Assembly: GCF_032191465.1 (NCBI RefSeq)
Contig: NZ_JAQOUE010000001.1
Location: forward strand, 1 to 64,000
Reading direction: 5' to 3'
From: Candidatus Nitronereus thalassa
GTDB lineage: Bacteria; Nitrospirota; Nitrospiria; Nitrospirales; UBA8639
Length of the DNA stretch: 64,000 bases
Below the pieces are notes generated by a model. That model saw only the letters and a program-made list of their open reading frames with translations. It was not told the origin of the DNA and ran no database searches. Of the stretch, positions 2,428 to 46,952 are shown piece after piece; positions within the stretch are counted from its first letter, which is position 1; each line of letters starts with the position of its first letter. The translations under genes were made by a program, and so were the position numbers.

Positions 2428-2852
2428 CTCACGACCCTCCTTTGTTTAGTTTTACGTTGTATTTTGGGGCAAATAGCTGATCCGCTTGGTTTGAAATCCG
2501 GTGGACACTTCTGACGCATGGCACCCACGAGCTTCTTTTCGATTTCTTTCAAGTCGGCAATCTTCCGACGAAGTCCTTGAAGGCTTTGCTTGAGTGTGTG
2601 TTGCACATGGCCGCATGGACAATGTCCCCGGTCAGCCAGGTCTAAGAAGGTTTTAATATCCTTTAGCGTGAGCCCAAGGGTTTGGGCTTTCTTTATAAAC
2701 ATCAGACGGTCAATTATGGGGAACGCATAAGTCCGATATCCTGCTGAAGTGCGTACTGGTTGGGGAAGCAATCTTACCTCCTCATAGTATCGGATGGTTT
2801 TTATGGGTACCCCCGCCTGTTTAGCGATAGTTCCAATGAATAAAGTCTTCAT
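2424..2852 (-). CDS. MerR-family heavy-metal-responsive regulator
   Basis: A 142-aa regulator. The N-terminal winged helix-turn-helix (residues 5-70, with VPIKTIRYYEEVRLLPQP and SAGYRTY) is typical of MerR. It is followed by the dimerisation helix and cysteines at residues 78, 80 (HCPCGH), 116 (KCPP) and 128. The Cys spacing is closest to thiolate sensors of Hg/Cd/Pb/Zn rather than CueR, which lacks the first pair. Its own promoter carries a 20-bp spacer with a dyad, as expected for MerR control, so autoregulation is likely. The ATG lies only 8 nt from the -10 box, implying a leaderless or nearly leaderless mRNA. Confidence 0.9.
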   Translation of the reverse strand: MKTLFIGTIAKQAGVPIKTIRYYEEVRLLPQPVRTSAGYRTYAFPIIDRLMFIKKAQTLGLTLKDIKTFLDLADRGHCPCGHVQHTLKQSLQGLRRKIADLKEIEKKLVGAMRQKCPPDFKPSGSAICPKIQRKTKQRRVVR

Positions 2853-36374: not shown

Positions 36375-37139
36375 ATGAAGGAACGTGAAGCCGTCACGAT
36401 TACTGGTCTGGTACTCTTTCTGGCCCTCTTCTGGCTCGGGTTTCTTTTCCACCAGTCGCCACGGTTTGCAGGGAGTTTGTGGGGTGGGGTGTTTGGCGTG
36501 AGCGGGGCGACGCTGATGCTTGTTCCACTGGCATACCTCATCATCAAACGAGTGAAAACTTTCAAACAGGCAGTGACTCGACGTGTGTCGATGCGTACGC
36601 TGCTCGCATGGCACATCTATGCCGGTGTCGTGGGACCCATTCTCGTGCTCTTCCATACGGGCCATAAGTTTGAAAGTCCCTTAGGAATTGCCTTAACCAG
36701 CATGACAGTCATTGTCGTGTTGAGTGGATTCACCGGCCGCTATCTCATGGGTCGGATTTCTCAAGAGATTAAAGAAAAACGAACCATGCTCGACGGGTTG
36801 AACGCCTCGTACCAGGAGACGTTGCAACGGCTGCGAACCTGCTGCGCGGATAAAACGGCTCAACTCAAACCCTTTGATGGCTTTTTCTCCAGGTTGTTGG
36901 GAGGGGCATTTTTCAGTGTGCAGGAACAGGAGACGGAAACAATGTCCATCGGCCTCCGTGCCATTCGGCTTTCTGATGCGATTGCCGACCTGGAATACGC
37001 CATCAAAACGCATGACACCATCAAACACATGTTTACCTTGTGGCTGAGAATTCACATCACCTTATCCATGGTACTCTACACGCTCCTCGCCTTCCATATT
37101 TGGGCAGCCATTCACTTTGGATTGCGGTGGTTTTCATGA
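36375..37139 (+). CDS. Four-helix membrane protein, likely b-type cytochrome
   Basis: A 254-aa integral membrane protein with hydrophobic segments near residues 8-27, 34-58, 80-125 and 225-250. Histidines lie in or near helices (LLAWHIYAGVVGPILVLFHTG, RIHITLSMVLYTLLAFHIW), as expected for haem ligation. A soluble loop with CC lies between. It follows the FNR/2Fe-2S fusion after 15 bp, so it is probably its electron acceptor. The last 23 codons are repeated as a relic at 46041-46134 in front of a seven-haem cytochrome c, suggesting that such a cytochrome was once the next gene. Confidence 0.75.
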   Translation: MKEREAVTITGLVLFLALFWLGFLFHQSPRFAGSLWGGVFGVSGATLMLVPLAYLIIKRVKTFKQAVTRRVSMRTLLAWHIYAGVVGPILVLFHTGHKFESPLGIALTSMTVIVVLSGFTGRYLMGRISQEIKEKRTMLDGLNASYQETLQRLRTCCADKTAQLKPFDGFFSRLLGGAFFSVQEQETETMSIGLRAIRLSDAIADLEYAIKTHDTIKHMFTLWLRIHITLSMVLYTLLAFHIWAAIHFGLRWFS

Positions 37140-37142
37140 AAA

Positions 37143-37190
37143 CGGACTGTGTAGAAAATAACCTCTTGTCTGTAGCTGCGGCATCTCACT
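37143..37190. repeat. Half copy of the REP-like repeat
   Basis: GTAGAAAATAACCTC followed by CTGTAGCTGCGGCATCTCAC, matching one arm of the full copies but lacking the second arm. It lies just after the membrane b-type gene, at the left border of the iron-uptake block. Confidence 0.6.
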
Positions 37191-37205: not shown

Positions 37206-37403
37206 TTAGTTCAGGGGATCTTCCCGGTGTTTGGGCTGGTTAATGGAGCATGGTATATCCATCTGCAGTAGATGATCCCTTTTGCATCGGCGGCATTTGA
37301 CTTGTATGCCGGTCGGAAGGATCTTTGCCAAAAGGCAACCACAGGAACAACGAATTTCACTCGGGTCTTTTTCTGGAAGATTGGAATTTCCGTGTTTTTT
37401 CAC
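37206..37403 (-). CDS. Com-like zinc-ribbon protein
   Basis: A 65-aa protein with IRCSCGCLLAKILPTGIQVK followed by CRRCK, the CxC-x(n)-CxxC zinc-finger pattern of phage Mu Com and similar small proteins. Mu Com is an RNA-binding translational regulator of mom; relatives also occur outside phages. The GTG at 37403 has AGTAGGG in front. It lies downstream of tonB on the same strand with no phage genes around. Its role here is unknown; post-transcriptional control is one guess. Confidence 0.75.
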   Translation of the reverse strand: MKKHGNSNLPEKDPSEIRCSCGCLLAKILPTGIQVKCRRCKRDHLLQMDIPCSINQPKHREDPLN

Positions 37404-44115: not shown

Positions 44116-44691
44116 TCATGAAACGCTTCCTCCTGTGCATGGGCTTGGCAATATGGGAGAATCGGGTGTGTTGGTGAACTCGGAAAACGTGAGAGGCGCG
44201 ACAGCTGCTGGCTCATGGTTCATTTCGCAGGCAGGCTGGTGTGTTCCTTCCTGGCAATATTTCAGCATTTCTATCACAACCGCCATCCCACGAACATCCA
44301 ACCTATGGACCAAGCAATATCGGACGATCCCTTCCGGATCGAACACGAAACTTTGGCATCGGTCTGGAGATTTTTGACCAAATAATCCCAAACGTCGAAA
44401 AAGGCGTTTTGAAGGATCGGTAAGAAAGGGAATCCGAAGTTTGCCGATCTTTCGAATGGAGGGGTCATAACATGCATCGGGTTCCCAAAGAAAGCTCAGT
44501 AGAACGGCGCCCTGTTCAGCCACGGACTGGCTTTGTTGGTTAAGAAAAACGGCCTTGTCCAACGCCAGTCGTGGCATACAGCATACAACGCTCCATTGGC
44601 CAGTGAGTTGGGCAAGATCAAAAACAATTATTTCCCCCTCAACTATGGCCGGAATTCTGATTTGTGGGAGTGTGGAATAACCAATTCGCAT
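44116..44691 (-). CDS. Peroxiredoxin-like (AhpC/TSA) protein
   Basis: About 191 aa starting MRIGYSTLPQIRIPAI. It has thioredoxin-fold features of AhpC/TSA proteins: TGQWSVVCCMPRLALDKAVF in place of the usual F-x-P-x-C-T catalytic loop, VLLSFLWEPDACYDPSIRKI, then FLTDPSKRLFRRLGL and SFVFDPEGIVRYCL. The Thr/Pro-x-x-Thr arrangement around the peroxidatic Cys is altered to CCMP, so activity is uncertain. The ATG at 44691 with GAGGTG upstream is preferred over the longer frame to 44910. It may protect against peroxide linked to iron uptake. Confidence 0.75.
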   Translation of the reverse strand: MRIGYSTLPQIRIPAIVEGEIIVFDLAQLTGQWSVVCCMPRLALDKAVFLNQQSQSVAEQGAVLLSFLWEPDACYDPSIRKIGKLRIPFLTDPSKRLFRRLGLFGQKSPDRCQSFVFDPEGIVRYCLVHRLDVRGMAVVIEMLKYCQEGTHQPACEMNHEPAAVAPLTFSEFTNTPDSPILPSPCTGGSVS

Positions 44692-44775: not shown

Positions 44776-45133
44776 AAGGAGGCGAAGGGTTGAAATTCGC
44801 TCCCCTTTTTTCGCATGGGATTTTCGGTTTGCTATCGGGACCATGGGAAAAATCCAAAAAAGGGGTTTTGAAATCAAGCGAATAAAAATGATTCCCAATA
44901 TCATTTTCATAAAGGTAACAATTTGTTTCTCTCATTGGAATGTCCACCCTCCAGAGAAATTATGCGCAGAGAACGGATTTCAAAAGATTAATTTGGCTCA
45001 GGGAAGGAGAGAAGGATGAGGGAAAAATCGTCCACGACTTTCATTCCGAACATCATGCTTGATTCTCCAAAACCGGGTGCGCATAAGTTTGGAAGGGGTC
45101 CCTTGCTTCCAGGGTGGCAGGGGGCCACGGCTC

Positions 45134-45829
45134 CTAGCCGTAGGGGAGTGCTCTTTTGTCCGATGGGTTCCGCAGAGCGGATGAGGAAAATGCCACGGGC
45201 TCTGTCCGTGGGAATCCATGCTTACGCTGGTGAACCTGCTCCCTGTATTTCCTGGGAGAGTGGCCGGTCGCTTTCTTAAAAAAATGACTGAAGGCGAATT
45301 GGTCCTGAAATCCAAGACGTTCCGCGATATCCGCTATGGGGGCGAATCCTTCCTCCAAGAGGACTTTGGCCTTTTCCAATCGATGTCGTTTCAAGTAGCT
45401 GGAAAACGCTTCTCCCATTTTCACCTGAAAGAGTTCTGAGCAATACTTTTCTGAGTAGCCGAGAAATTTAGATAATTCCTTCAACGTGAGTCCCTTGTGC
45501 AAATTGGTGCTGATGAAGACTTCAATTTGTTGAGCCAAGTCGGGGGTAGGGCGGGGCGGGCCCTCCATCTGTCGGAGACATTCATTAAAAACGTGAGGAG
45601 CAAGGTGCTTGAGCTTTTGCTCCATTCCAACCTGCTTGACCCGTGTGGTCCAATCAGTAAGATACTGCTGGAATTCGACAATGAGGTCATTCATTATTCC
45701 ATGCGGACCAAAGGATTCCTGTGGGTAGAGTTTCCCGCGCAGCATGCCCCGCAACTCCAAATCCGATCCTTCAGAATTCAGTTTTGAGGGACCGTCACGG
45801 AACGTAGAAGGCTTGAAGAATTGTTCCAT
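45134..45829 (-). CDS. AraC-family transcriptional regulator
   Basis: About 231 aa. The C-terminal half has the two AraC helix-turn-helix motifs: KGLTLKELSKFLGYSEKYCS and IADIAERLGFQDQFAFSHFF, ending KKATGHSPRKYREQ. The N-terminal half is a short effector or dimer domain with no recognisable fold. The ATG at 45829 is preceded by AGGA; an in-frame start at 45889 is less likely. AraC proteins often activate siderophore receptor genes, which fits the TonB cluster. A Fur-boxed promoter and a terminator lie upstream. Confidence 0.85.
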   Translation of the reverse strand: MEQFFKPSTFRDGPSKLNSEGSDLELRGMLRGKLYPQESFGPHGIMNDLIVEFQQYLTDWTTRVKQVGMEQKLKHLAPHVFNECLRQMEGPPRPTPDLAQQIEVFISTNLHKGLTLKELSKFLGYSEKYCSELFQVKMGEAFSSYLKRHRLEKAKVLLEEGFAPIADIAERLGFQDQFAFSHFFKKATGHSPRKYREQVHQRKHGFPRTEPVAFSSSALRNPSDKRALPYG

Positions 45830-45897
45830 ACGAATCGTCCTAATCCCCCCTGAGTCGTTTTTTCTTGCGCGTAACGCCGCAATGGCCATGACCCGAT

Positions 45898-45935
45898 AAA
45901 AAAAAGCCCAAGGTCAGGTTCGTTGACCTTGGGCT
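45898..45935 (-). terminator. Strong intrinsic terminator between promoter and araC
   Basis: On the minus strand, GCCCAAGGTCA and TGACCTTGGGC form an 11-bp perfect stem with a 7-nt loop followed directly by nine T residues. It lies 62 nt downstream of the -10 box and 69 nt before the araC start. Confidence 0.85.
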
Positions 45936-45990
45936 CGGGGATCGCATCCCTTGGGCCTCTAAGAAAAGAGCCAGCTGATTTAATTAAATT
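45898..45990 (-). ncRNA. Candidate Fur-controlled small RNA (RyhB-like logic)
   Basis: A promoter (TTGAAA-17-TATAAT, 46025-45997) overlapped by a Fur-like box and an intrinsic terminator at 45898-45935 define a transcript of about 93 nt. Besides the terminator hairpin it has a small GGGAT-GCG-ATCCC hairpin and an A/U-rich 5' end. Size and layout are those of Fur-repressed sRNAs such as RyhB. The alternative is an attenuated leader for araC. No sequence homology to a known sRNA is claimed. Confidence 0.55.
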
Positions 45991-45996
45991 TTATCA

Positions 45997-46025
45997 ATTA
46001 TAATGAAAACCATAATCATTTTCAA
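45997..46025 (-). promoter_or_regulatory. Sigma-70 promoter overlapped by a Fur box
   Basis: Minus strand: TTGAAA (46025-46020), 17-bp spacer, TATAAT (46002-45997). GAAAACCATAATCATTTTC at 46005-46023 matches 15 of 19 bases of the Fur consensus and covers the spacer and part of the -35 box, an arrangement typical of Fur repression. Confidence 0.75.
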
Positions 46026-46040
46026 GTATGCGGAAATCTA

Positions 46041-46134
46041 CCTATCTTCTCTTCCCTTGTCCATGATATTCTTAATTTTTCTCGCCCTCCACGTTTGGGC
46101 GGCCATTCACTTTGGATTGCGGTGGTTTTCATGA
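46041..46134 (+). pseudogene. 3' relic of a second membrane b-type gene
   Basis: The frame ending at 46134 reads LSMIFLIFLALHVWAAIHFG then LRWFS and stop, nearly identical to the C-terminus of the protein at 36375 (LSMVLYTLLAFHIWAAIHFG, LRWFS). The DNA from GCCATTCAC to TTTTCATGAAAAC is identical at both sites. No start or earlier part of the gene remains. It lies 17 bp before the seven-haem cytochrome gene. Confidence 0.8.
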
Positions 46135-46151
46135 AAACTGGGTGGTGATTT

Positions 46152-46952
46152 ATGGGTAAGCTGGGAATTGTTGCTATCACGCTACTCACGATCGTAGGGG
46201 GATTAGGCCTTGTCTATACCAGCGTCGGAACCCCGATGGCTGCCAACACCTGGCAGCAATTGGTCAATCCAGGGGAACTCTCCGTTGTCCATGCTTCTCT
46301 GGAACAGAATTGCGCAGCCTGCCATACCGCGGTCATGGGAGTGGATGCGACGAAGTGCATCCTTTGCCATGCCAATGAGGAATCGCTCCTGCAGCGTCAG
46401 CCGACGGCCTTTCATGCCGACGTCAGAGAATGTCGATCCTGCCACCACGAACATCGAGGGCACGTTCGAAAGCCCTCGAATATGGATCACCGGGCTCTGG
46501 CCAAGATTGGCTTACTCAACCTCCCGAGTGATGAAAATTCATTCGGCGAAGCAGAAATGGTGCGCTGGAACCTGACGAATTGGCTTGAGCATTCAGAAGT
46601 GCTATTGCCTTCACCGCTTGCCAATCATCACGTCGCACCAGAAGAAGCCATTTTGAACTGTGCCACTTGTCACAAAAACGATGACCGGCATTTTGAACTC
46701 TTTGGCCAGGATTGTGCGGCCTGCCATGCCACCCAGGCCTGGACCCTTCCCGAATTCCAGCATCCCCCCGGTAACTCAATGGATTGCGTCCATTGTCATC
46801 AAGCGCCACCCAGCCATTATATGAAGCATTTCACCATGATTTCGCAAAGAGTGGCTGGCCAGCCACAGGCCAGAGTGGATCAGTGCTTTTTATGCCATCA
46901 GACCACCTCATGGCCGGATATTAAAAGAGCCGGGATGTATAAACATCATTAA
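46152..46952 (+). CDS. Membrane-anchored seven-haem cytochrome c
   Basis: A 266-aa product. An N-terminal transmembrane anchor (GIVAITLLTIVGGLGLVYTS) is followed by seven CXXCH haem motifs: CAACH, CILCH, CRSCH, CATCH, CAACH, CVHCH and CFLCH, with many extra histidines as likely distal ligands. It should be a periplasmic multihaem electron carrier fed from the quinone pool or from a b-type partner. It is preceded by the relic of a membrane b-type gene whose intact copy lies 9 kb away after the FNR fusion, suggesting a former FNR/b-type/c-type electron-transfer operon. Confidence 0.9.
   Translation: MGKLGIVAITLLTIVGGLGLVYTSVGTPMAANTWQQLVNPGELSVVHASLEQNCAACHTAVMGVDATKCILCHANEESLLQRQPTAFHADVRECRSCHHEHRGHVRKPSNMDHRALAKIGLLNLPSDENSFGEAEMVRWNLTNWLEHSEVLLPSPLANHHVAPEEAILNCATCHKNDDRHFELFGQDCAACHATQAWTLPEFQHPPGNSMDCVHCHQAPPSHYMKHFTMISQRVAGQPQARVDQCFLCHQTTSWPDIKRAGMYKHH

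Follow-up and report, generated by a model that had tools for sequence, protein, structure and literature searches.

A putative Fur-controlled regulated terminator in the araC leader of Candidatus Nitronereus thalassa and a family of related RNA elements in the Nitrospirales

What is encoded in the short interval that separates an iron-uptake block from a cytochrome gene in Candidatus Nitronereus thalassa? The locus lies within a stretch of 64,000 nucleotides (positions 1 to 64,000 of contig NZ_JAQOUE010000001.1; hereafter the window). The adjoining minus-strand gene, which we propose to be the controlled one, specifies an AraC-family regulator (45137..45829; HTH_18, E 3.2e-21) and possesses a further in-frame start upstream at 45889. 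Beyond it, on the same strand, lie a redoxin-like gene and the genes for ExbB, ExbD, a TonB-dependent receptor, and TonB; a multihaem cytochrome c gene is found in divergent orientation at 46152. The initial annotation had favored a Fur-repressed small RNA with the logic of RyhB, and had mentioned a terminator-attenuated araC leader as the alternative. It is the latter reading that we now consider probable, and which can be extended to copies throughout the Nitrospirales: the sequence would be the leader of the araC gene heading the iron-uptake block, and would carry a Fur-controlled regulated terminator belonging to a module reused across this order.

The other two of the three genus genomes compared lack the araC gene. 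A 58-bp direct repeat (93% identical; window positions 37086-37143 and 46081-46138) brackets the whole iron block of approximately 9 kb, and its second copy encodes just the final residues (MIFLIFLALHVWAAIHFGLRWFS, 46063-46134) of the gene at 36375-37139. This flanking repeat suggests that the block is an insertion separating that gene from the cytochrome gene.

A sigma-70-type promoter, TTGAAA-17-TATAAT, is present on the minus strand at 46025-45997 (11/12 matches), exactly as first annotated, and its predicted start lies near 45990. Also borne out was the overlapping 15/19 match to the Fur consensus, which resolves into two overlapping 19-bp registers, 46023-46005 and 46017-45999, each scoring 15/19; together they form a Fur-box-like sequence (45999..46023, minus strand) spanning the -35 to -10 region. 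All Fur scores given here express agreement with the E. coli consensus and are to be read as sequence matches only. The window genome (4.0 Mb) possesses three Fur-family genes. Downstream of the promoter is a strong intrinsic terminator (45898..45936, minus strand), the stem of which (45936-45904) contains 13 pairs rather than the 11 originally counted, 12 of them Watson-Crick and one G-U, with a loop of 7 nt and a tract of eight T residues (45905-45898) rather than nine. The positions of promoter and terminator predict an RNA running from approximately 45990 to 45898, that is 93-94 nt, and the initial prediction of a transcript of about 93 nt holds. Folding of a 95-nt RNA gave -34.6 kcal/mol versus -21.4 +/- 3.3 kcal/mol in shuffles (z -3.96).

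The layout is that of an attenuator, with a promoter followed by a terminator upstream of the controlled gene, all in the same direction and with no intervening promoter. The terminator is situated 69 nt from the preferred araC start, and a promoter scan reported no match between the two; given this gap, the case against a separate araC promoter is less strict here than in the sigma-factor leaders discussed below. Elsewhere in the window, an additional Fur-like sequence, AAAAATGATTCCCAATATC (44884-44914; 14/19 against the E. coli consensus), precedes the redoxin gene at 44688. A short hairpin resembling a terminator, GCCCAAGGGTTTGGGCTTT, occurs in three identical copies (window 2672-2690, G000:C1:81686-81704, and G000:C1:3355060-3355078, G000 being the window genome); two of these are near contig ends, and the hairpin is possibly part of a repeat.

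Preceding the terminator is a 5′ hairpin (45932..45957, minus strand), the proposed antiterminator, which consists of two helices and a purine-rich internal loop. In the window copy P2 pairs GGC (45957-45955) with GCC (45934-45932), and P1 pairs GGGAT (45950-45946) with ATCCC (45942-45938). The lower 5′ arm of the terminator, GAGCCC, is common to P2 of this hairpin. Alternatively, the first block, GGCYMGA, could pair with the 3′ arm of the terminator; this pairing is perfect in the window copy (GGCCCAAGG) and was discarded, an A standing opposite a G in most copies.

Comparison with related genomes, which the initial annotation had pointed to, gave a divided answer. The DNA search found no relative of the full-length leader beyond its own genome; the terminator half with its preceding hairpin, on the other hand, recurs as a covarying RNA family. 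Two relatives matched over the terminator, in each case just upstream of their araC homologues, and twelve araC-homologue leaders, including our own, proved to share one block: GGC[CT][AC]GA, a short variable hairpin, and CCAGAGCCCA, which starts the terminator stem. A covariance model built from these twelve leaders (R1) has matches in 40 of the 49 genomes of the window's family, with up to nine per genome; the second copy in the window genome is at G000:C1:109373-109436. A further model, R2, built from 62 copies, matches 137 of 396 Nitrospirota genomes with 1-9 copies each, nearly all of them in the order of the window (Nitrospirales) and a few in other classes, and among the genome stretches examined it gave no stray full-length match that looked unrelated. 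The family consensus is GGCYMGA, a short hairpin, and CCAGAGCCC, the last being the 5′ arm of the terminator. The final 67 nt of the predicted RNA (45962-45896, minus strand) constitute a complete member, scoring 62.7 bits with R1 (E 2.2e-16, such covariance-model E-values being rough) and 59.1 bits with R2, and diverged in its first block, where it reads CCAA instead of CMGA. Weak matches on the minus strand, which stem from the near palindrome and involve the terminator half only, were ignored.

Covariation analysis reveals 142 cells changed on both sides in alignment A3 (the window's family), versus 45 in shuffles, and 123 versus 30 in alignment A6 (a second family). Both helices of the element covary, and sliding the pairing partners abolishes this signal in both alignments. 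Within the 5′ hairpin it is P1 that covaries, the support for P2 being mainly its conservation: GGC/GCC is found in 104 of 120 parsed copies and is nearly invariant, with one covarying case (GGA/TCC in one copy). The upper terminator stem varies freely and the lower 5′ arm GAGCCC is almost fixed, as would be expected if GAGCCC had a second pairing partner; a plain terminator would not need a fixed arm. The mean energies are -5.6 kcal/mol for the 5′ hairpin and -24.6 kcal/mol for the terminator half, and so weak an upstream hairpin is what one would expect of an antiterminator that needs a stabilizing factor.

We surmise the following mode of action. When iron is plentiful, Fur would repress the promoter. 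Upon derepression RNA polymerase would meet the 67-nt regulated terminator, which would form by default and release the RNA of approximately 93 nt. A bound factor would stabilize the hairpin GGC-YMGA-[P1]-YMRA-GCC and thereby hold GAGCCC, the 5′ arm of the terminator, which could then not close, and araC would be transcribed. Throughout the Nitrospirales, sigma-factor, tonB, exbB, receptor, and other genes are presumably under the control of this module as well.

The genes associated with the other copies are in keeping with such a role. Pfam analysis of the genes directly behind 85 copies identified HD/HD-GYP proteins (15), ECF sigma factors (14), TonB (13), AraC (10), MauG-type cytochromes (6), TonB receptors (5-6), ExbB (2), and redoxins (2); behind several copies there are short ORFs which, judged by eye, begin like bacterioferritin-associated ferredoxins. 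A Fur score of at least 14/19 against the E. coli consensus was found within 170 nt upstream of 40% of the copies lying outside one recurrent operon, versus 0.8% in shuffles. Inside that operon, which is named here for its 170-aa gene, the figure is 4%, and no clear Fur box was recognized in the promoters of its first gene. A TTGAC-type -35 box adjoins the Fur box in 46 of 54 copies, versus 8% in shuffles, mostly at a spacing of 21-22 nt. The conserved operon itself comprises genes for a Com-like zinc ribbon, a porin-like protein, a small lipoprotein-like protein, FMN_bind, and the 170-aa product (loci L088, L090-L094, L100-L107, and others). The last of these is membrane-protein-like (MRNFNTRFRLRDTD...) and without a Pfam match, and the operon usually ends in the RNA element.

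The leaders of the ECF sigma-factor genes, which come from the second family, display a consistent order: Fur-box promoter, a leader of about 110 nt, the element, an AAGGAG-like site, and ATG. In one copy the predicted start all but adjoins the element. Between the end of the terminator and the ATG are 28-31 nt, part of which the AAGGAG-like ribosome-binding site occupies. This leaves no space for a second promoter, from which it follows that the sigma gene can be read only through the terminator. These leaders are the strongest argument for attenuation in cis over a free small RNA.

That free small RNA, the headline of the initial annotation, would be a Fur-repressed, trans-acting RNA of about 93 nt that pairs with mRNAs in the manner of RyhB, araC having its own promoter. 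Like RyhB and PrrF, the element has a Fur-overlapped promoter and yields a short terminated RNA, and this part of the comparison stands; several copies per genome, whose terminated RNAs are predicted to measure 73-223 nt (median 134), would also suit a regulator acting in trans. Unlike those RNAs, however, it is structured and fixed in cis before iron genes, and what is conserved in it is the covarying hairpin and the terminator arm, not an exposed seed. No Rfam family reached its gathering threshold; the PrrF model scored 14.2 bits against a threshold of 90, and the sub-threshold matches (SdsR, NsiR1, ctRNA) vary from copy to copy and were taken as chance. With its position tied to the downstream genes, and with sigma leaders that have no room for a promoter, we regard action in trans as unlikely.

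An ordinary terminator of lineage-specific sequence, which might for instance end upstream transcripts and would switch nothing, was considered as well. Of 121 copies examined, about a quarter come after the 170-aa gene, sometimes with no gene to control, and some close an operon and are followed only by a convergent gene. Many copies, though, belong to the leader of the gene that follows and have a Fur promoter ahead of them, and termination as such would require no conserved GGCYMGA block and no invariant lower 5′ arm. The stem type is moreover rare in its own genome, where a loose stem pattern found just five matches, a result that also eliminated a dispersed repeat or generic terminator. 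We consider simple termination the least plausible of the readings, and very improbable.

For a regulated terminator, the question becomes which factor reads it. Peptide-mediated attenuation was rejected for the window copy, in which the segment from the predicted start to the element contains no ATG, GTG, or TTG. In the BglG/LicT type of system, the RAT is a weak, protein-stabilized hairpin with an internal loop which overlaps the 5′ arm of the terminator, as does the hairpin of the element. The RAT sequence differs from that of the element, and a CAT_RBD protein was present in none of the six genomes tested; this type was set aside. Attenuators of the ANTAR type (NasR/EutV) likewise combine a leader terminator with antitermination, and one ANTAR protein is encoded in many of the genomes. 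Their hallmark, paired hairpins with hexaloops carrying A1 and G4, is however not enriched (13% of leaders versus 17% in shuffles), and most element-bearing genomes of genus g11 have no ANTAR protein. The ANTAR protein in question is found beside aroB (L222:4004-5269 (-), L224:3694-4965 (-)) in many Nitrospirota; it appears by eye to have two GAF-like domains, and is not the reader of this element.

The main alternative to a protein is that the hairpin, with its purine-rich loop, is a metabolite or metal riboswitch which directly binds a ligand such as iron, haem, or a siderophore-related compound. The attenuator layout would be the same and the factor would differ. A conserved internal loop, a small weak hairpin overlapping the terminator, and consistent iron genes are all compatible with this proposal. 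On the other hand, the aptamer would measure only about 26 nt, and many copies have co-oriented Com-like genes as neighbors, an indication that a protein is involved; direct ligand binding accordingly strikes us as a minority prospect, on the improbable side.

These genes specify small CCCC zinc-ribbon proteins of the form RCxCGxLxAK..GIExKCxRCKR, and ORFs of this kind are found beside the element in Nitrospirota loci. Seven of the 121 copies lie 8-78 nt behind one. All seven of the 170-aa-gene operon loci with enough flank have a Com-like ORF upstream on the same strand, and for the other copies with such an ORF in the stretch examined the nearest is on the strand of the element in 44 of 44 cases, ORFs being shared by copies and these cases hence not independent. 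A background of 100 kb contained no Com-like ORF, the sample being small and the regular expression having been tuned on sight. Six of the proteins were compared with PHROG. Four matched families named "translational regulator" or "gpCom control of modification", with E-values from 2e-7 to 6e-4, a fifth gave a weak match, and the window ORF gave none. This ORF (37206..37403, minus strand; 65 aa) lies behind tonB in the same iron block and is a candidate RNA-binding partner; it has neither a Pfam nor a PHROG match. The Com-like proteins reach Pfam Zn_ribbon_Com (PF10122) only below its threshold, one compared by tblastn with phage records found no match, and a search of the PDB returned nothing significant.

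Phage Mu Com recognizes hairpins in RNA; its published target combines CC(N)2-3GAG with a second motif, GAG(N)2CC, and the GA is protected (PMC6483171). The two CC-N-GAG blocks of the element partly resemble this target, their spacer being 1 nt versus the published 2-3. The two systems differ in that Mu Com activates translation, whereas the element is a transcription terminator, and in that the element occurs at chromosomal iron genes rather than at genes for DNA modification. From the gene neighborhood and this likeness, a Com-like zinc-ribbon protein is our tentative choice as the likeliest reader. It is also quite possible, in equally tentative terms, that the Nitrospirota have a chromosomal system in which such proteins bind the conserved hairpin and switch terminators throughout the Fur regulon, with a related arrangement in phages. 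If true, this would be a new class of protein-controlled transcription attenuator, drawn from proteins so far known in Mu-like phages.

The family most likely represents a widespread, previously undescribed RNA switch of nitrite-oxidizing Nitrospira bacteria. The literature, as far as covered (few subscription journals), holds no description of the element and none of RNA control of iron genes in nitrite oxidizers or comammox bacteria, and together with the Rfam result this agrees with the earlier impression that it had not been reported. Iron control in the main nitrite-oxidizing and comammox bacteria has hardly been studied. A structured RNA that is present in 1-9 copies per genome and tied to Fur promoters and zinc-ribbon genes would add a second layer to the iron regulon and would give cellular Com-like proteins a testable function.

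Following a pattern scan, R2 scored on about a dozen phage contigs (E 5e-6 to 1e-3, again rough values), and about half of those examined clearly carry the motif at the 3′-end of a gene for a small zinc-ribbon protein. On viral contigs L236, L243, L227, L240, and L233 the zinc-ribbon genes end in ...RGQSVxRQSP, their last codons matching the RNA motif and running into the terminator. Beside several of the chromosomal copies (L091, L092, L090, L094), PEP-CTERM-like proteins (VPEPSTLLLLGSGL...) are encoded between the MauG-type gene and araC.
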